DNA of 52,527 bases from Anaerolineae bacterium (GTDB lineage: Bacteria; Chloroflexota; Anaerolineae; JAADDB01), in the NCBI GenBank assembly GCA_015490995.1, contig WFWT01000109.1:1-52527 (forward strand), read 5' to 3'. How positions within the stretch are numbered: the stretch's first letter is position 1; the number at the start of each line of letters is the position of its first letter. The notes under the pieces were generated by a model that made no database searches, was not told the origin of the DNA, and saw nothing but the letters and a program-made list of their open reading frames with translations. The translations under genes were made by a program, and so were the position numbers. Shown in pieces: positions 30,176 through 47,741 of this stretch.

Positions 30176-32326
30176 TTATCCCAGCGGGTAAGAGAGCGTG
30201 GCGTTTTCCCAGATGGGCAAAGGGACAACTCCGTGAGCCGCATCGGTCACCTGTTGTAGGCGATTCGGGATGGCTATAAGGGTCTGACGACGTAACCATC
30301 GACGGCGCCGCTCAGCTCCCAGGATTTGTCGCGCTTGATCCTTGTAAATATCCCATGGAACAAGGCGTCCCTCTGCAAACGCTTGTGGGTCCAAGAGGTC
30401 AATACGCCGTGCGTTTAACTGGACATGCACCAGGTCTCCGGTTTGTAACAGCCCGATCCCGCCTCCGTTAATGGCTTCCGGCGTTACGTGACCAATGGCA
30501 GGTCCATACGTCACTCCCGAGAAACGCCCATCGGTCAGCAGGAGGGTGATGCGTCGCAGGGCTTTTCGCGCGTTGACATATTGCATAGGAGTGAACATTT
30601 CCGGCATGCCAAATGCCTCTGGCCCCTGACCGCTGATCACCACTGCTAACCGCAGTATTCCCGCATCTATCATCCATTGGAACAATTCTTCTTTTGTCCA
30701 CTTGCTCACCGATGGTGGTAAGGAATCGGTTCCTTTCATGTTATATGAGGCAATATTCACCAAAGTGCCTTTGCTTATATCTTGTATATTTTTCAACCTG
30801 TTGAGCATGTGGATATCAGATAGTCGTGCGTTGGCTTCCTCTTCGTTCTCGAAAAATATAACAACGGCCACCTTGTCATTAAAGTGTTCGAGCTGTTCGT
30901 CGGTCATACCGCTTATCTTGAGGACCGCGCTATCAAAGAAATTGCCCCGCAACACTTCAACACCGCTAATGGTGCGTTTGGGATACGATAGGATGACGGG
31001 GTTTTCCTTAACGCCGTTGGCGGGCAGGGCGTGTTCATCCTGCAAGCGCTCGCGCCATGTGGTGCCGGTCACTGTTGGGGTGTCTAAGTCCATGGGCACA
31101 CCGTGTCGTTGCAGTTCATAGAAAAGCGTTTCCGTGCCCCGAATTTGCCCTGCGGCACATTGTTGAGCCAAAGTAAAAATATCACGCCCTTGGGTCAAAC
31201 TGTAGTCGAAGATGTCCGGTACCGGTGGATGCCGGCGGATGTAGTCGATGGTGTCAATGGTTACACGGTAGCCGGCATACACCATAGCCGCTACGAGGTG
31301 CATCATCAGGTTGGTGGAGCCTCCGGTAGCGCTGTACACACGCACCGCGTTGGCAAAATTGGCGGCCATCACATGGGCTACGCTGAACATGGGACGCGTG
31401 AGACAGGCGAACAGTCCATCCACGACTTGCTTAACTCGCTCCATCTCTGGGGGAGCTGTCAGCAGTTCGACAGCGGGATGGACTAGGCCCATGGCTGCCA
31501 GGGCTATGCGGCTGGAGTTTCCTGTACCGTTGAAAGCACAAATGCCACCGTTGTGATGACAAGTGTGGACGGCAAGGCGTTTCTCATAGTCATTATGCTC
31601 TGCGACTGTAATCAGCCCCGCATCTCGAGCCCGCTGTAGTACGGCCCGATAGGCCGCGTTAGACGTGCATTGCAGCACGTATTTCATCGTGTCCCGCAAG
31701 TCGTTAGCGATGTCCGTATATCCTTGCTCCTCAGCCCGCCGCGCGAGGTTTGTCAGGGCATGGTGAAGGTCTTGGGGAAGGGTTCCGCCCCGCAATACAT
31801 GGGCCGGATGGAATGTGGCCATCAAGGGGCGTTCCCCCCGCCGGCGGCGGATAAGGTCCAGGTGGGCCAATCCGGCCAGGATGGCCAGGGGGGTTTTATC
31901 ACATCCTGTGATCACATAAGCGGCGTGGTAACTGTGAGCTTCCATTTGGTTGGTCACCATTGCGGCCACCGCGTTACGGCTTTGTAAGCTGTAGCTCATG
32001 CCCAGCGTACTTTGAGCAATGGCGTCACACACGACGGGCACGCTGAAGTAAAACGGCACACCACCTCGCATCCACACACACGCAGCTACTTTAAGAACGG
32101 TCTCCCAATCTGTGATGTGAGCCGGATGGTCGAGGGAGCCGCCAATGATGGCGATGCGAGGAGCGTTTTTGTCAAGTCGGTCGTATACCGTCTCCAGGCA
32201 GCATTCAAGCTCATCTAGCCCTAACATTTCCCGGGCACGTTCCAGAAGCCGTACCACAGTAATGGGGGCGTTGGCTTTTGCTTGGACGTTGTCCGCGTAT
32301 GGATTACTTGCTTCCATGACCACCAT
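30176..32326 (-). CDS. IlvD/Edd-family dehydratase, probable pentonate dehydratase (YjhG/XylD type)
   Basis: This family uses an Fe-S cluster to remove water from sugar acids or dihydroxy acids, giving 2-keto-3-deoxy acids. The 716-residue product is longer than IlvD or Edd (about 560-620), as are YjhG-type xylonate dehydratases. It has TGCDKTPLAIL (Cys142), GGICAFNGTGNS (Cys263) and TDGRFSGVTYGPAIGHVTPE (20 residues), the family end motif. GGAGG sits at the 3' end of the preceding gene, directing the ATG at 32326. A stretch around 30700-30960 is noticeably AT-rich. Operon context (FAH-family dehydratase and aldehyde dehydrogenase) supports D-xylonate or L-arabonate as substrate, by inference. 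Confidence 0.82.
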   Translation of the reverse strand: MVVMEASNPYADNVQAKANAPITVVRLLERAREMLGLDELECCLETVYDRLDKNAPRIAIIGGSLDHPAHITDWETVLKVAACVWMRGGVPFYFSVPVVCDAIAQSTLGMSYSLQSRNAVAAMVTNQMEAHSYHAAYVITGCDKTPLAILAGLAHLDLIRRRRGERPLMATFHPAHVLRGGTLPQDLHHALTNLARRAEEQGYTDIANDLRDTMKYVLQCTSNAAYRAVLQRARDAGLITVAEHNDYEKRLAVHTCHHNGGICAFNGTGNSSRIALAAMGLVHPAVELLTAPPEMERVKQVVDGLFACLTRPMFSVAHVMAANFANAVRVYSATGGSTNLMMHLVAAMVYAGYRVTIDTIDYIRRHPPVPDIFDYSLTQGRDIFTLAQQCAAGQIRGTETLFYELQRHGVPMDLDTPTVTGTTWRERLQDEHALPANGVKENPVILSYPKRTISGVEVLRGNFFDSAVLKISGMTDEQLEHFNDKVAVVIFFENEEEANARLSDIHMLNRLKNIQDISKGTLVNIASYNMKGTDSLPPSVSKWTKEELFQWMIDAGILRLAVVISGQGPEAFGMPEMFTPMQYVNARKALRRITLLLTDGRFSGVTYGPAIGHVTPEAINGGGIGLLQTGDLVHVQLNARRIDLLDPQAFAEGRLVPWDIYKDQARQILGAERRRRWLRRQTLIAIPNRLQQVTDAAHGVVPLPIWENATLSYPLG

Positions 32327-39546: not shown

Positions 39547-40341
39547 CTATGGTGAGATACCACCACCGGCGTATCCGAGACGACGGGATAATTCTTGGGC
39601 CAGTGCCCGGACCCGTTGTGCCAGTTCCTGTTCCCGTGCTTCGTCCATCCGGGTTAGGGGGACCGAAATGCTCACAGCGGCGACCACGTTCCCTTGGGCA
39701 TCGTATACCGGCGCGCCTACACAACGCAGGTCGTCCAACGTTTCACCCCGGTCAACCGCGTATCCCTTGTGCCGGACGTCCGCCAATTCCCGTTTCAGGT
39801 CCTCCACATTGTCGATGGAACGGGCGGTGCGCTTTTCCAGAACCACACCTTCGTAGAGTTTATCAATCTCTTCCTCGGTCAGACCGGCCAGTAACGACTT
39901 GCCCAATGCCGTCGTGTGCGCTGGGAGCTCGGAACCAACCTCACTGGCCAGGCGTACCGGCTGCGTGCCTTCCTGTTTCCCGATGTACAGCACATTGCGC
40001 CCACGTAAGATGGCCAGCTGCACCGTTTCCCCACACTCCCGGGCCACCTCTGGGGCCAGTGCTTGGAATTCCTTCAGCAAGTTGATGCGTTGGACATAGG
40101 CTAAGCCTAACACCAGCAGTTGGGGACCCAGCGTATAACGCTTAGTCGCCGGGTCCTTTACGATGAAGTCGTGTTGCTCCAGCGTACTTAACACTACATA
40201 TAAGCTGCTTTTAGCCACGTTCAACGCGCGCGCCAGCTCGCTTACACCCATGCCATCTCCATGGTTGGCCAACACCACCAAAACCCGCAGCGCTCGGTCG
40301 ACTGAGGGGGAGATGGGTTTGTTCACGGCCATTTTGTTCAT
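39547..40341 (-). CDS. IclR-family transcriptional regulator
   Basis: IclR proteins control catabolic operons in response to a small-molecule ligand. The 264-residue product has the winged helix (VDRALRVLVVLANHGDGMGVSELARAL, quoted in part as VSELARALNVAKSSLYVVL). The ligand-binding domain follows with LPAHTTALGKSLLAG and DDLRCVGAPVYDAQGNVVAAVSI (in part DDLRCVGAPVYD). The ATG at 40341 has AGAGG upstream; a second ATG at 40332 is possible. A perfect sigma-70 promoter lies at 40377-40405. It is the first gene of the operon, so it is probably autoregulated and controls the catabolic genes. Confidence 0.9.
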   Translation of the reverse strand: MNKMAVNKPISPSVDRALRVLVVLANHGDGMGVSELARALNVAKSSLYVVLSTLEQHDFIVKDPATKRYTLGPQLLVLGLAYVQRINLLKEFQALAPEVARECGETVQLAILRGRNVLYIGKQEGTQPVRLASEVGSELPAHTTALGKSLLAGLTEEEIDKLYEGVVLEKRTARSIDNVEDLKRELADVRHKGYAVDRGETLDDLRCVGAPVYDAQGNVVAAVSISVPLTRMDEAREQELAQRVRALAQELSRRLGYAGGGISP

Positions 40342-40405: not shown

Positions 40406-40607
40406 GGGGTTTCCATTGCAAAACCGTTCGAAAATTGGTGGAGTGTGTACCCGCCGGGCGTTTCGTTGATGAGGCGCGATATCCCATACCCCTTGGCAAA
40501 TGTCCGGGGTGACGGTTCGGCCTTCCCCATACTGTATGCCGGGTGCCGGTTTCTCCCCTCGACCTTGGATGGCGTTCAGATCCCGTCTTCCACGCGCACC
40601 GGAAAAT

Positions 40608-40636
40608 TTGACAGCTTATAGGAGAGTGGATATGAT
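40608..40636 (+). promoter_or_regulatory. Sigma-70 promoter of the ilv-leu leader
   Basis: TTGACA (40608-40613) and TATGAT (40631-40636) are separated by 17 bases. The predicted start near 40643 gives a 5' leader of about 50 bases before the leader peptide. The stretch 40406-40607 upstream, between the two divergent promoters, shows nothing else. Confidence 0.75.
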
Positions 40637-40690
40637 GGGGAATAACCTTAAAGGGGTCAGGTCAACATTAGGGGAATATTGGGAATTCCA

Positions 40691-40798
40691 ATGATGTACA
40701 GCGCTCTGTTGGTCCTCATTATTAGCCTCCTGGTATTGTTGGGCGGGGCCATTATTACCCTGCAGGGGTCCCGCGTTGGGAGGCGAGTGAGGGCGTAA
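40691..40798 (+). CDS. Leader peptide rich in Leu/Val/Ile (branched-chain amino acid attenuator)
   Basis: This 35-residue reading frame starts ATGATG and contains the block LLVLIISLLVLLGGAII; sixteen of its residues in total are Leu, Val or Ile. A weak GGGA lies 6 bases upstream of the first ATG. A strong terminator follows 30 bases after its stop. The end of the frame (GTTGGGAGG, 40775-40783) can pair with the terminator's left arm and loop. This is the arrangement of an ilv/leu attenuator: ribosome stalling on branched-chain codons would favour the antiterminator. It could instead be a small single-pass membrane protein, since the same residues make a good helix. Confidence 0.55.
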   Translation: MMYSALLVLIISLLVLLGGAIITLQGSRVGRRVRA

Positions 40799-40828
40799 CG
40801 GAGCGCACTCACCAGGGAACCGAAGAAG

Positions 40829-40863
40829 ACCCCCTTCCCAACCGGGAAGGGGGTTTTTATTTA
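40829..40863 (+). terminator. Rho-independent terminator, likely attenuator of the ilv-leu operon
   Basis: ACCCCCTTCCC (40829-40839) pairs with GGGAAGGGGGT (40844-40854) over AACC, and TTTTTATTTAT follows. The left arm plus loop can alternatively pair with 40775-40783 in the leader peptide frame (nine pairs, one bulged T). The two structures exclude each other. Confidence 0.85.
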
Positions 40864-40923
40864 TGGCCTGTACCGGGTTTCGGTTTCCTGGCATGATTTG
40901 ACCCCTTGGGGGCATACAGTGTG

Positions 40924-40968
40924 GAGGGCGTTCGGAAATGCATGGCCTGGGAAGGACTCAACGCCCTC
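40924..40968 (+). other. Stem-loop between attenuator and small gene
   Basis: GAGGGCGTT (40924-40932) pairs perfectly with AACGCCCTC (40960-40968) over a 27-base loop. Its role is unknown; it sits about 40 bases upstream of the small gene at 41007. Confidence 0.45.
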
Positions 40969-41006
40969 GGTGTAGTGAACTCTTTCGTGAGCCGGTAGGG
41001 AGGTGA

Positions 41007-41183
41007 ATGATGCAACAGGAAAGGCGTGCCAACGGTGAATCCCGGCCCCGACACTGGTGGTACGAGAGTGACGAGCCCGCGACCTTCCCTCACTTCATGA
41101 ACGATGGGTACGCACCTCCGGATTGGGAGCTCCTGGTAGCCTTGGAGATGACCAACAGCTTGTCCGACGAGGATGTAGCGTAG
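41007..41183 (+). CDS. Small hypothetical protein between attenuator and ilvB
   Basis: The 58-residue product starts ATGATG and has GGGAGGTGA at 40998-41006, well placed for the second ATG. It is acidic at its end (SLSDEDVA) and contains RPRHWWYESDEPATF and PPDWELLVALEMT. No family is recognised. The 225 bases to ilvB hold nothing clear apart from a GTAGTAC tandem at 41187-41200. Codon use looks like that of a normal gene. It may be a regulatory partner of the branched-chain operon or simply an unrelated small protein. Confidence 0.6.
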   Translation: MMQQERRANGESRPRHWWYESDEPATFPHFMNDGYAPPDWELLVALEMTNSLSDEDVA

Positions 41184-41408
41184 CGCGGTAGTACGTAGTA
41201 CGGTCTAATACATATCCCAGCACTCCTATCCCTGAGGGGCATAGACGCTCCTGGAGCCGCGTGTGCTCCGTCCTCCCGCCGTTTGGGGTTGTCAACCGGC
41301 ATTGATGTGGGCGCTCTGGAGAGCTGAGCGCGAGTTAAGCCCCCCGCACCCAGATTCGGGTACGGACACGGAAGATTTAGCCAGAACATACGTTAGGGAG
41401 GAGATGGT

Positions 41409-43130
41409 ATGGCCAAGAAGCGGAGCGGCGCGGACATTGTGTGGGAAGCTCTCCTGGCGGAGGGCGTGGACGTGTTGTTCGGTCACCCGGGGGGAGCTAT
41501 TCTCCCCACTTATGATGCCATGACGAAGTACCCCGTTCGCCACATCCTGGCCCGGCACGAACAGGGCGCGGCCCACATGGCAGATGGGTATGCCCGAGCC
41601 ACCGGTAAAGTGGGCGTGTGCATGGCCACTTCCGGCCCCGGCGCGTTGAACCTCGTTACCGGTTTGGCCACGGCGATGATGGATTCCATCCCTGTCGTGG
41701 CCATTACAGGTCAGGTGCCCACCACCCTCCTGGGCAACGATGCCTTCCAAGAAACGGATGTGGTTGGCGTCACCTTGCCCATCACCAAGCACAATTTCCT
41801 CGTGACCGACGTTCACGAGCTGCCCTGGGTCATGCGCGCGGCGTTCAAGATCGCACGGACCGGTCGTCCCGGTCCGGTGTTGGTAGACATTTGTAAGGAT
41901 GCCCAAATTGCGGAGACCGATGTGCCGTTGCCTGATCCGGACGATGTTCACGTGCCTGGGTTGGAGCGTTATCCTCAGGTGGACATGACCGCAGTGCGCG
42001 AGGCTGCAGCGCTTATCAACAAGGCAAAGCGTCCTCTTATTATCGCCGGACACGGCGTTCTTTTGTCTGGAGCAGAGCGGGAACTACAAGAACTGGCAGA
42101 GAGGGGCAGTATTCCCGTTACGACGACCCTTTTGGGAATCGGCAGTATTCCTGAAACGCATCCCCTTGCCTTGGGCATGTGTGGCATGCACGGCGAGGCC
42201 TTTGCCAATATGGCTATTCAAAAATGTGACGTCCTCATCGGCATCGGTATGCGGTTTGATGACCGGGTTACCGGGCGGTTGGCAGATTTCGCGCCTAACG
42301 CAAAGGTGATTCACTTCGAGTTGGACCCCTCCGAAGTCAACAAAAATGTGCAAGCTGCTGTGGCAGTGGTTGGGGATGCCAAGGAGTCTCTCCAAGCACT
42401 CCTGCCCCTGATCGAGCCTGTGTCACGCGCGGAGTGGCTGCGTCAGATTGACGGGTGGCGTCGTGAGAGCCAAGAGCGGGATATAGCCAACATAGAGGTG
42501 GACGAGGTCATTCCACCCCATTTCATGCGTGAACTGTGGCATGTAACGAAGGCCGACGTCATCATCGCTACAGATGTAGGACAGCACCAGATGTGGGAGG
42601 CCCAGTATTACATCCATCAACGCCCTAATCAGCTGCTCACGTCTGGTGGTCTGGGCACTATGGGATATGCTGTCCCCGCGGCCATTGGTGCTAAAGTGGG
42701 GCGCCCTGAAGAGACGGTGTGGGCCGTGGTGGGAGATGGGGGATTTCAAATGACCATGCAGGAATTGGGCACCATTGTGCAGGAAGATATTCCCATCAAG
42801 ATCGCGGTGATTCGTAACGGCTTTTTGGGCATGGTGCGCCAGTGGCAGCAACTCTTCTACGAGAAGCGCTACGCGGCCACCCCCATCTTTTGCCCGGATC
42901 TGGTGAAACTTGGAGAGGCGTACGGTATCCCCGCGCGGCGCATCACCCGCCGGGACGAACTCCACGACGCGATCAAAGAGGCCCACGAGAGTAAAGGGCC
43001 CTTCTTGCTGGACGTGAAAGTTATGGAAGAGGTGAACGTGTACCCGATGGTCGCGCCCGGCGCGGGTATCGACGAGATGATCCGGCGGCCCATTGTGCAG
43101 AACCCGAGCGGCATGACGCCGGCGTGGTAA
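41409..43130 (+). CDS. ilvB: Acetolactate synthase large (catalytic) subunit
   Basis: IlvB condenses two pyruvates to acetolactate, or pyruvate with 2-ketobutyrate, using thiamine diphosphate and FAD. The 573-residue product has the N-terminal [15 protein letters not shown], the catalytic Glu in [32 protein letters not shown], and the thiamine-diphosphate motif [23 protein letters not shown] precedes the ATG. It opens the ilvBNC-leuA series and lies behind the putative attenuator at 40608-40863. Confidence 0.95.
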
Positions 43131-43237: not shown

Positions 43238-43762
43238 ATGCCGCGGCATACGATCATTGCATGGATGGAAGATAAGCCTGGTGTGTTGGCCCGCATTGCC
43301 AACTTGTTTCGCCGACGTAACTTCAACATCGAAAGCTTGGCGGTGGGCCACACGGAGACGCCTGGCGTAAGCCGTATGACCTTTGTGGTGGAAGGGGATA
43401 GCCGCATGGTGGACCAGGCGGTCAAGCAGCTGCTCAAGTTGATGCCCATTATTCGGGTGGAAGATGTCACCGACAAACCCGCGGTTGTGCGCGAAATGGC
43501 CCTCATTCGGGTGCGAACCGATGCTCAAACACGCGGGGAGATCATTCAGTTAACCGAGATCTTTCGTGGTCAAATTGTGGACGTCTCCCGTGACAGTATG
43601 GTGCTCCAGATAGTAGGACCGGAAGAGCGCGTGGATCGGTTTGTTGACCTGATGGAACAGTTCGGCATTGTTGAGATGGTGCGCACCGGCCGAGTCGCGA
43701 TGACACGGGGAGATGATAACAACAACAACGGCGCCAAACGGAAGGGGACGATGGGGCTTTAG
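43238..43762 (+). CDS. ilvN: Acetolactate synthase small (regulatory) subunit
   Basis: IlvN binds IlvB and gives feedback inhibition by valine through its ACT domain. The 174-residue product starts with the ACT domain [20 protein letters not shown] and continues [12 protein letters not shown]. The second domain has [10 protein letters not shown] and [13 protein letters not shown]. The length and order are typical of the short-to-medium form. A basic tail with [12 protein letters not shown] follows. GAGGAGGGG precedes the ATG. It is separated from ilvB and ilvC by repeat-filled spacers of about 100 bases. Confidence 0.94.
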
Positions 43763-43854: not shown

Positions 43855-44859
43855 ATGGCAACCATCTACTACGACCAGGACGCAGACCTGAGCCGCTTGG
43901 AAGGCCGCCGCGTGGCCATCATCGGCTACGGCAGCCAGGGACACGCGCATGCGTTGAACTTGCGGGACAGCGGTGTGGATGTGACCGTTGGACTGTATGA
44001 GGGCAGCAGATCTTGGGCCAAGGCAGAGGCCGATGGGCTCAGGGTGATGACCGTGGCAGAGGCCACCCGATGGGCCGATGTTGTCGTGCTCCTTATCCCG
44101 GATACTGTCCAACCTCAGGTATACCGGGAGGCTATTGCGCCCAACCTGAGCGAGGGGAAAACCCTAATGTTCGCCCACGGCTTCAACATTCGTTTCGGCC
44201 AGATTGTGCCTCCTTCCGATGTGGATGTCAGTATGGTGGCCCCCAAGGCTCCTGGCCACCGCTTGCGAGAACTGTATGTGGAGGGCGTTGGCACCCCAGC
44301 TCTGGTCGCCGTGCACCAGGATGTCTCGGGTGAAGCGTTAGCCGATGCCCTGGCCTACGCTAAAGGGCTGGGCTGCACCAAAGCCGGGGTTATCCTCACC
44401 ACGTTCGCCGAGGAGACGGAGACGGACCTCTTTGGGGAACAAGCTGTGTTATGCGGGGGGATTAGTGCGCTGATCAAGGCAGGTTTTGAAACTCTGGTAG
44501 AGGCCGGTTACCAGCCGGAGGTAGCGTATTTTGAGTGCGTCCATGAGTTAAAGCTCATTGTGGACCTCATCTATCAGGGAGGACTCAACTACATGCGTTA
44601 TTCGGTGAGTGATACGGCTGAGCACGGGGACTACACAGCCGGTCCCAAAATCATCACCGAACAGGTGCGGGAGAACATGCGCCAGATCCTGCGGGACATC
44701 CAGAATGGAACGTATGCCCGGGAATGGATCCTGGAAAATCAGGCCGGTCGTCCTCTCTTTAACTCCATGCGCCAACGGGAGCGCCAACACCCTGTGGAGC
44801 AGATCGGCCGTGAGCTGCGGCGCATGATGCCGTGGCTGAATCCGGTGGAGGTGGAATGA
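43855..44859 (+). CDS. ilvC: Ketol-acid reductoisomerase (class I)
   Basis: IlvC isomerises and reduces acetolactate to 2,3-dihydroxyisovalerate with Mg2+. The 334-residue length is class I. It has the dinucleotide motif [19 protein letters not shown], a cofactor loop [18 protein letters not shown], and the metal residues in [10 protein letters not shown] and [13 protein letters not shown]. The loop position usually Arg in NADPH enzymes is Tyr48 followed by Glu49, so cofactor choice may differ. AGGAGG precedes the ATG. It follows ilvN and precedes leuA in the same direction. Confidence 0.94.
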
Positions 44860-44976: not shown

Positions 44977-46683
44977 ATGTCCGACAGCGAAGTGGTTGCC
45001 GACATTGGGGAGGTACCGGTAAGTGAACCTTACAACCCGAACACGGTGCTCATTTTCGACACGACCTTGAGGGACGGTGAGCAGTCGCCCGGCGCGACGC
45101 TCACGCCGGAAGAGAAGTTAACCATCGCCCGTCAATTGAGTCGCTTAGGGGTGGATATTATTGAGGCCGGCTTTCCTGCCGCTTCGCCTGGAGACCTGGA
45201 AGCGGTGCGACAGATTGCGGCTACGGTTGGTCGAGAGGGGAGATTAGGTAAGGATGGTCGGTTACGGCCGCCACCGATTATCGCCGGTTTGGCACGTGCC
45301 AACCGGGAGGACATCGATAAGGCGTGGGAAGCCGTTCAACCGGCCCTTCGCCCCCGCATTCACACCTTCATTGCAACCTCGGACATTCACATCAAGCACA
45401 AACTGCGCATGACACGTCAAGAGGTCCTCCACCGGGTGCGCGAGATGGTATCCTACGCCAAGGCCTATTGTGAGGACGTGGAGTTTAGCCCGGAAGACGC
45501 GGGTCGCTCCGACCCTGAGTTCCTGGTGGAGGTGTTGGCCACCGCCATTGAGGCCGGGGCCACAACCTTGAACATCCCGGACACCGTGGGATACACCCTG
45601 CCTCACGAATTTGGCGAGCTGATCCAGTACCTGCGGGAGAACACCCCCGGCGCGGACAAGGTTATCTGGTCCGTCCATTGCCACAACGACCTGGGCCTGG
45701 CCACCGCGAACACCCTGGCAGGCATCATGGCCGGCGCGCGCCAGGCCGAGGTCACCGTGAACGGCATCGGCGAACGGGCCGGCAACACCGCGCTGGAGGA
45801 GGTGGTCATGGCTCTGTGGGTGCGCCGTTCCGTCTTCGGGCTGGACACGAACATCATCACCCAGGAGATCTATCGTACCTCGGAAATGGTCAGCCGTTAC
45901 ACGGGCATGGTGGTCCAGCCCAACAAGGCCATCGTGGGTGCCAACGCGTTCGCCCACGAGGCGGGTATCCACCAGGACGGCGTGCTCAAGCACCGCCGTA
46001 CTTATGAGATTATGGACGCCGAGACCATTGGCTTGCCCCAGAGCAAGTTGGTGCTCGGCAAACATTCGGGCCGCCACGCGTTCCGGGTGAAGCTGGAGGA
46101 GATGGGATATCGCCTCGCCCCTGATGAGTTGGAGGAGGCCTTCCGGCGCTTTAAGGTGCTCGCGGACAAGAAGAAAACCGTCACCGACGCGGACTTGGAA
46201 GCTCTGATTTCCGATCAGTTGTCCCAACCGCCGGAAACGTGGCACATTGAAACGGTGCAGGTGCAATGTGGCAATAACGCCATTCCTACGGCTGTGGTGC
46301 GCCTGCGCAACCTGAAGACCGGTGAAGTCTTTACAGAAGCGGGATTTGGTACCGGGCCTGTGGATGCCATGTACCAGGGCATCAACCGGATCGTTAAGGT
46401 GCCCAACCGGTTAGTGGAATTCCGGCTTGAGGCCATCACCGAGGGTCTCGACGCACAAGCGGACGTCACCGTGCGCATCGAAGCGGAACCACCGCAGGGG
46501 CCAGAAGATGTCAGCAGCGGTGCTCGCCGTCGACGGATCTTTACCGGCCGCGGGTTAGACACGGACATCGTCGTGGCCAGCGCGAAGGCGTACATTCAGG
46601 CCCTGAACCGCCTGCTGGCCACGCGAGCCGCCGAGGAAAGCACCATCGCGGTGCGTTCCACGGTCGCCGGCGACGGGTTATGA
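44977..46683 (+). CDS. leuA: 2-isopropylmalate synthase
   Basis: LeuA joins acetyl-CoA and 2-ketoisovalerate, the first committed step of leucine synthesis. The 568-residue product has the catalytic-barrel start [60 protein letters not shown] (metal His pair), and [21 protein letters not shown]-terminal LeuA allosteric domain begins near residue 430 and gives leucine feedback inhibition. GGGAGGGGGAACC precedes the ATG. Citramalate synthase is the closest alternative, but length and motifs favour LeuA. It ends the branched-chain gene series; leuBCD are not in the window. Confidence 0.92.
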
Positions 46684-46845
46684 CGGCCCATCGCCGACAC
46701 CAGGATGTGTTGGCACCTTAACAACTTCATATCGCCCTTTGTAGTTGGGGCGTGGGGTGTTCAGGACGGCATGTGGGGATTTTCGGGTGGACCCACATGG
46801 CGTTACACTATGTTGAGAACGTTCCCGATGCCTTTGGAGGGAAGA

Positions 46846-47286
46846 GTGGCTCGAACGTCCGGTCCGGATAGGGAAACCATCTACCATGCGCTGAAGCAGC
46901 ACCTTCTCTCGCGGGCCGAGATTCTCTTTGCTTATGTCCACGGTTCCCTGGTGGACGGCGTCAAGTCGTACCGTGATGTGGACGTGGCGTTGTTTCTCGA
47001 CCCCGCATGGGTTGGCGCTCACAAAGAAGATCTCCTCGCGTACGTGTTGGACCGTTCTACCGAGTTGACCGTGGCCTTGCGTGAGGAGATTGGGTTGCGG
47101 GTGCCGGTGGACGTGCAGGTGCTGAATGATGCCCCGCTGCTCTTTCAGATGCACGTGATCCGGGACGGCCGCTTGCTCTTCACGCGTGATGAAGAAGCGC
47201 TGGTGGATTTCATCGAGCGCACTGCCCGGCAACATATGGACATGGAGCCTTTGCTGCGCGAGTACATGCGGGAACTCCTGTCATGA
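46846..47286 (+). CDS. mntA: MntA-type nucleotidyltransferase antitoxin
   Basis: Minimal nucleotidyltransferases of this type neutralise HepT by adding AMP to its active-site tyrosine. The 146-residue product has HGSLVDGVKSYRDVDVALF with Gly33, Ser34, Asp44 and Asp46, the GS-x9-DxD core; a further Asp sits in PVDVQVL. The GTG at 46846 has GGAGG five bases upstream; in-frame ATGs at 46810 and 46828 have weak sites. The stop overlaps the HepT start as ATGA. Together they match the mntA-hepT toxin-antitoxin order seen in Shewanella. Confidence 0.82.
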   Translation: MARTSGPDRETIYHALKQHLLSRAEILFAYVHGSLVDGVKSYRDVDVALFLDPAWVGAHKEDLLAYVLDRSTELTVALREEIGLRVPVDVQVLNDAPLLFQMHVIRDGRLLFTRDEEALVDFIERTARQHMDMEPLLREYMRELLS

Positions 47287-47741
47287 GTCCAGCCTTACGC
47301 AAAGAACACGTTCAAAACCGAATCCGGGAAATCCGGGCCAACGTGGAGCGAATCCGGCGGTACGCTTCCTTGCCCGACGAGGCATTTTTCGCCGATGAGC
47401 GGAACCTCTATACCGTGCAACACCTGCTGCTCATGTGTGTGGAAGCGGCCGCGAGCATCTGCACCCATATAATGGCCCGTCTTGCCCACGCCGCGCCCTC
47501 GACATACGCCGAGTGCTTTATGGCCCTGAGCGACCAGGGCGTGATAGAACGCGACCTGGCCCAACGACTTGTCCGTGCCGTCCGATTTCGCAACCTGTTG
47601 GTGCACCAGTACTGGAACGTTGATTCCCAACAGGTCCTGAAAATCGCGAGGGAGCACGTCGATGATTTCACGGCGTTCGTCCGGCAAATAGGTCGGTGGT
47701 TGGAAGAAAGCGCGACACGAAAGTACGGTGTGGATATTTGA
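47283..47741 (+). CDS. hepT: HepT-type HEPN RNase toxin (DUF86)
   Basis: HEPN toxins of the HepT family cut RNA, for example tRNA, when not inactivated. The 152-residue helical product has the catalytic R-x4-H-x-Y motif as RNLLVHQY (Arg103, His108, Tyr110). The helices before it (LYTVQHLLLMCVEAAASIC) match the DUF86 fold. Its ATG overlaps the MntA stop by 4 bases. Tyr110 is the residue modified by MntA in the characterised pair. The pair lies between leuA and gltB without own repeats or integrase. Confidence 0.85.
   Translation: MSPALRKEHVQNRIREIRANVERIRRYASLPDEAFFADERNLYTVQHLLLMCVEAAASICTHIMARLAHAAPSTYAECFMALSDQGVIERDLAQRLVRAVRFRNLLVHQYWNVDSQQVLKIAREHVDDFTAFVRQIGRWLEESATRKYGVDI

Follow-up and report, generated by a model that had tools for sequence, protein, structure and literature searches.

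The ilvB, ilvGMEDA and leu operons of Escherichia coli and Salmonella are preceded by leader-peptide attenuators. Such enterobacterial ilv/leu attenuators are cited as known in the work on the Staphylococcus aureus ilv leader (PMC5794164), for which leader-peptide attenuation is experimentally supported, as it is for Rli60 of the Listeria ilv-leu operon (PMC5864092). Naville and Gautheret (2010; PMC2965389) stated that, until their own case in Firmicutes, no leader-peptide system had been demonstrated in bacteria other than Proteobacteria and Actinobacteria. A survey of Actinobacteria described candidate ilvB leaders in which ilvBNC is preceded by a short ORF containing runs of Ile, Val and Leu and by a terminator; in the Streptomyces coelicolor ilvB leader, however, the regulatory codons were not needed and codon changes had no effect (PMC1262725) and, therefore, anatomy alone is not proof of attenuation. 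A survey of T-boxes listed three of them (ile and trp related) in Dehalococcoides (PMC2494555). The literature that we searched, which did not take in Lopatovskaya 2010, contained no earlier report of a leader-peptide attenuator in Chloroflexota.

The window analyzed here comprises positions 1 to 52,527 of contig WFWT01000109.1 from a 3.0 Mb assembly of an Anaerolineae bacterium, the nearest relatives of which by contig identity are the metagenome-assembled genomes (MAGs) JALWHQ01 (Anaerolineae bacterium, same genus) and JAADDB01 (Chloroflexota bacterium, same family). We suggest, with a probability of about 0.9, that a classical ribosome-mediated attenuator in this window senses the charging of Leu-, Ile- and Val-tRNA and controls a transcript carrying a gene for a 58-residue protein together with ilvBNC-leuA. 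The features on which this suggestion is based are the following:

40608-40636, forward strand: sigma-70-type promoter TTGACA-17-TATGAT, with TTGACA at 40608-40613 and TATGAT at 40631-40636
40691-40798, forward strand: Leu/Ile/Val-rich leader ORF of 35 codons, ATG at 40691 and TAA at 40796-40798, control codons chiefly in 40706-40762
40701-40806, forward strand: ribosome-free protector, 40701-40719 with 40787-40806 and 40725-40732 (GCCUCCUG) with 40777-40784, hiding the antiterminator 5' arm
40775-40783, forward strand: antiterminator 5' arm GUUGGGAGG, codons V-G-R, pairing with 40834-40842 and covarying across families
40825-40858, forward strand: intrinsic terminator, stem 40825-40839/40844-40858, loop AACC, T-run 40854-40858
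40834-40842, forward strand: antiterminator 3' arm CUUCCCAAC, formed by the upper part of the left terminator arm together with the loop
41007-41183, forward strand: gene for a soluble protein of 58 residues with the motif FMNDGYAPPDW, first gene 3' of the attenuator, homologs in seven genomes of two families
41409-43130, forward strand: ilvB, acetolactate synthase large subunit (TPP_enzyme_N, E 8e-42)
43238-43762, forward strand: ilvN, acetolactate synthase small subunit (ALS_ss_C, E 3e-30)
43855-44859, forward strand: ilvC, ketol-acid reductoisomerase (KARI_N, E 4e-76)
44977-46683, forward strand: leuA, 2-isopropylmalate synthase with a LeuA_dimer domain (HMGL-like, E 1e-95; LeuA_dimer, E 2e-35)

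The promoter scan confirmed the promoter of the original prediction, which matches the consensus at 11 of 12 positions, and the 35-codon frame packed with Leu, Val and Ile codons was likewise found where it had been proposed. The frame, translated as MMYSALLVLIISLLVLLGGAIITLQGSRVGRRVRA, reaches 11 Leu, Ile or Val among 12 residues at its densest stretch, and the genes behind it (ilvBNC-leuA in the window; ilvD, ilvE or ilvB in relatives) are biosynthesis genes for these same amino acids; its ribosome-binding site is weak as judged by eye. The leader peptides of relatives have LIV (Leu, Ile and Val) richness in common and little else, their sequence and length varying freely, and codon use differs between leaders and ilvB, with ATT at 64% in leaders vs 32% in ilvB and CTT at 37% vs 4%. 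Many leader ORFs also contain a second hairpin (GCUCCUGG...CCAGGAGC, residues ELLVL..GQEP; L007, L015, L201) with apparent compensatory changes, which is perhaps a pause hairpin.

The surroundings of the leader contain further elements. A perfect TTGACA-17-TATAAT promoter at 40405-40377 on the reverse strand serves the divergent gene for an IclR-type regulator (39547-40341), and the upstream neighbor of the attenuator in a genome of the same genus (G001) is a different gene. Inverted copies of AAGGGGTCA lie on either side of the leader, at 40649-40660 and 40895-40908; they are peculiar to the window and are kept neither in G001 nor in G005, a genome of the same family. Directly 3' of leuA, at 46705-47741, a nucleotidyltransferase gene (Polbeta domain) and a HepT-like gene form a pair that is probably an MntA-HepT toxin-antitoxin module. 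An IlvD/Edd-family dehydratase gene (31049-32128, reverse strand) lies near sugar ABC transporter genes, and the true ilvD is separate, on contig C69. Within the flanks read, the ilvD, leuCD and aconitase-type loci of this genome have no such leader.

The leader ORF is separated from the structural genes by the intrinsic terminator, the core of which, CCCCCTTCCC(AACC)GGGAAGGGGG, occupies 40830-40839/40844-40853. The 11-pair stem with T-run that had been predicted is a fair count of this core, while the minimum free energy (MFE) stem has 15 pairs when the A/T flank is counted; the terminator scan built into the promoter tool found no terminators and missed this one, which is a limit of that scan. 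The antiterminator that had been proposed between the last third of the ORF and the left arm and loop of the terminator was recovered as nine contiguous pairs, one of them G-U, between 40775-40783 and 40834-40842. Folding of 40643-40863, as suggested at the outset, gave a 221-nt region that beats its shuffles (z −5.7), and the protector within it has an MFE of −58.9 kcal/mol (z −4.8) and a base stem that by eye still pairs in G001 and G005 via changed bases.

These parts suggest the following sequence of events. A transcript would start at about 40643 and carry the gene for the 58-residue protein as well as ilvBNC-leuA. With ample branched-chain amino acids (BCAA), the ribosome would reach the stop codon at 40796-40798 and cover 40775-40783, the antiterminator would be blocked and transcription would end at 40854-40858. 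With Leu, Ile or Val in short supply, the ribosome would stall at codons in 40706-40762 and open the protector helix, and 40775-40783 would pair with the terminator loop and upper left arm before the right arm is made, so that RNA polymerase would read on. Without translation, the protector would form and the terminator would win. We simulated stalling by folding the RNA with the ribosome footprint removed, the footprint being assumed to extend 12 nt beyond the A-site codon. With the ribosome at Leu, Ile or Val codons in 40706-40760, the loop segment was paired upstream with a mean probability of 0.70–0.98 with the polymerase at position 40842 and of 0.97–0.99 once the polymerase had reached 40847. 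For a ribosome at the stop codon, the value at the latter polymerase position was 0.02. The antiterminator and the terminator are mutually exclusive in pairing, covariation (see below) and simulation, and a ribosome at the stop codon would mask the 5' arm. At equilibrium the finished terminator (−45.4 kcal/mol) is more stable than the antiterminator (−35.8 kcal/mol) and, therefore, antitermination has to be kinetic. In classical attenuators antitermination is likewise thought to be kinetic.

The comparison of ilvB upstream regions that had been proposed as a check showed that the layout recurs: of 83 Chloroflexota regions put through an automatic scan, 66 have a LIV-rich ORF with a terminator behind it (70 units in all). 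The 83 regions came from two sources, a search for relatives and a scan of named genomes, from which known duplicates were removed and others possibly remain. Because the 70 units in 260 kb of ilvB-upstream DNA compare with one on the reverse strand and a mean of about 0.1 in shuffles, the leader-terminator layout is far beyond chance. The scan also missed several leaders that are recognizable by eye (L011, L033, L065, L069 and L182). In the class-wide pattern search, the pattern was self-complementary and most sites were, therefore, reported on both strands. The distance from stop codon to terminator has a median of 29 nt over the 70 units (range 11–60 nt), and the first gene behind the unit, identified from its protein sequence, is either ilvB itself or else ilvE or ilvD, each followed by ilvB. 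The whole layout ahead of ilvB is kept in G001 and G005, and at three loci (L081, from a Thermoflexus MAG, L094 and L097) two leader-terminator units stand in tandem ahead of an ilvD operon. Ribosome-mediated ilv attenuation conserved in most sampled members of the class Anaerolineae is well supported by these sequence comparisons. The leader also occurs in one other family outside the class (L127) and in G097 and G163, the latter probably being the cultured Herpetosiphon aurantiacus 114-95T; in G163 the scan did not find the antiterminator core that includes the terminator loop. The small-genome Chloroflexota lineages checked (G076, G159, G189) lack the leader. Three Holophagales-type Acidobacteriota loci (L099, L106, L107) have a similar LIV-rich leader MTRPAILLLLVLVLVLVTQGAN and a terminator ahead of ilvE-ilvB.

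Alternatively, the leader ORF could be a real gene for a small membrane protein and the terminator its ordinary 3' end, which would agree with the hydrophobic LIV run and the basic residues after it. Relatives, however, keep the RNA pairing although their peptides differ freely in sequence and length. The terminator stem places no constraint on the bases of the terminator loop, so that their complementarity to the upstream arm speaks independently for the antiterminator. The loop-including core is present in 63 of the 70 units, with at least 7 bp in 58 of these and with many distinct loop sequences. In 64 non-redundant units, its score was 19.94 for own arms vs 14.20 (sd 0.43) for swapped arms, and none of 10,000 permutations was as good; for the antiterminator duplex, own and swapped arms gave −17.9 and −13.7 kcal/mol, respectively (0 of 5000 as good). 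The swap test is conservative because the swapped arms of relatives pair too. We used the loop-including swap test because a per-locus test of the duplex against shuffles is weak for G-rich leaders such as that of the window (p 0.28), in which the C-rich arm finds many G-runs to pair with.

The codons of the antiterminator arm mostly read V-G-R, and the residues shift along with the pairing. Specifically, GUU/AAC is replaced by GCC/GGC in G001, giving A-G-R; a V-R-M variant pairs GGUUAGG with CCUAACC; an F-G-R variant pairs GUUUGGAAGG with CCUUCCAAAC; an A-G-R variant at L009 pairs GCUGGGAGG with CCUCCCAGC; and in the ilvE group the arm is found immediately past the stop codon, UGCUUGGG pairing with CCCAAGCA. 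In each of these cases the terminator loop changes to match. The unusual codon use and the presence of such an ORF upstream of ilvB in so many regions also argue against a membrane protein, which we consider very unlikely and which loop covariation has already largely refuted. Judged by these comparisons, the leader is conserved as RNA and not as protein.

The original prediction had named T-boxes as the usual guess for an organism of this type. For the genome as a whole the guess was apt: every one of the 120 class genomes that were searched contains T-boxes, and the genome of the window has four matches, two of them below the gathering score, ahead of ileS, valS, trpE and thrS (genes identified from their protein sequences). 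For this locus it was not, as the T-box family RF00230, with its stem I containing a specifier loop and its antiterminator bulge, had no match at gathering score in the window and none at E up to 10 in 40560-41010 or 40990-41430. Neither did 17 related ilv loci contain a T-box at gathering score, and Rfam leader families (Leu, Thr, Trp and His leaders and others) had no match above the gathering threshold in the window or these 17 loci. A stretch before ilvB (GGAGCCGCGTG...) that resembles the end of a T-box was dropped because it gave no T-box match, and weak Rfam matches in the leader (ncS037, PyrR and others) stayed well short of the gathering scores and were discounted as matches to terminator-like sequence. 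Control of the operon by a T-box or by some other protein-free riboswitch is, hence, hardly credible.

The 545-base gap between attenuator and ilvB, with another small gene in it, had been described as unusual. The gap and the gene are there, the latter with 58 codons and 225 bp ahead of ilvB; rather than odd spacing, however, the gene is a regular client of such attenuators. Profile searches in 396 class genomes detected seven clear members of its family, 46–66 residues long and from two families of organisms, and all seven genes sit behind a LIV-rich leader and terminator. All seven linked leaders have a TTGACA box ~65–85 nt before the leader ATG and six have, in the scan, a −10-like hexamer 16–17 nt past it; in G210, TTGACA-17-TATATA is recognizable by eye. 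The 11-codon core of the family has 80 synonymous vs 15 nonsynonymous pairwise differences among six genomes, a substitution pattern that marks the ORF as a protein under purifying selection. Searches of the protein with Pfam, NCBIfam and PDB profiles gave insignificant matches only, and an AlphaFold model is of low confidence (pLDDT 65, pTM 0.27). We speculate that the protein may be an effector that is induced by starvation and acts on translation or on amino acid metabolism.

In four of the seven genomes, the set of leader, terminator and small gene lies away from ilv genes (G003 and G004, both of the same family, and G210 and G036, both of another family; loci L195, L196, L201 and L213), the GYAPPDW motif having diverged in G036; in G004, ilvB is preceded by a further leader of its own that lacks the small gene. 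Conservation outside ilv loci had been named in advance as counting against attenuation. It does occur, but what is kept ahead of the small gene is the whole set of leader, antiterminator and terminator and, therefore, the interpretation is widened rather than refuted. These four genomes, together with hairpins right after the small gene in G003 and G004 that are visible by eye and suggest a single-gene transcript, could also mean that the attenuator primarily serves the small gene and that ilvBNC-leuA is a later passenger or has a promoter of its own within the 225 bp before ilvB. Throughout most of the class, however, the leader stands directly ahead of ilvB, ilvD or ilvE without the small gene and, therefore, ilv control is the widespread state; moreover, the stretch from the small gene to ilvB in the window revealed no further terminator, and the promoter scan found no second forward-strand promoter there. 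We consider it unlikely that ilvBNC-leuA is such a passenger and favor control of both the small gene and ilvBNC-leuA by the attenuator. In G011 (L211 1417-2226), a leader of the same type and a terminator lie directly ahead of a rubrerythrin-like gene. It seems somewhat more probable than otherwise that a BCAA attenuator common in Chloroflexota was co-opted to switch on non-biosynthetic genes during starvation, namely the GYAPPDW family as candidate effectors and the rubrerythrin-like gene, and was fused to ilvBNC-leuA in the genus of the window and in G005.

The LIV-rich ORF, the terminator, the ilv position, the loop covariation, the non-conserved peptide and the folding simulation of stalling together support the originally predicted ribosome-controlled ilv/leu attenuation. 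A covarying ilv attenuator across the class and T-boxes for ileS and valS in one genome mean that two RNA sensors of the same amino acids coexist. The many loop variants lend themselves to tests of how attenuators evolve, the link with an uncharacterized small protein yields a specific candidate starvation effector that experiments can address, and the leader in what is probably a cultured strain of H. aurantiacus makes the prediction testable outside metagenomes.

We conclude that the attenuator is ordinary in mechanism, newly placed and associated with an unexpected second client. It resembles the enterobacterial ilvB, ilvGMEDA and leu attenuators in its LIV-rich leader peptide, protector, antiterminator, terminator and ilv target, and differs from them in phylum and sequences and in that the Chloroflexota antiterminator arm lies mostly inside the ORF and pairs with both loop and stem of the terminator. 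Rli60 and the S. aureus ilv leader share with it ilv-leu attenuation outside Proteobacteria; they are Firmicutes systems combined with CodY. In actinobacterial ilvB leaders the ORF overlaps the terminator hairpin, whereas in Chloroflexota the terminator follows 11–60 nt after the stop codon. T-boxes (RF00230) likewise sense amino acid supply via transcription termination; here, the signal is predicted to be read by a translating ribosome.
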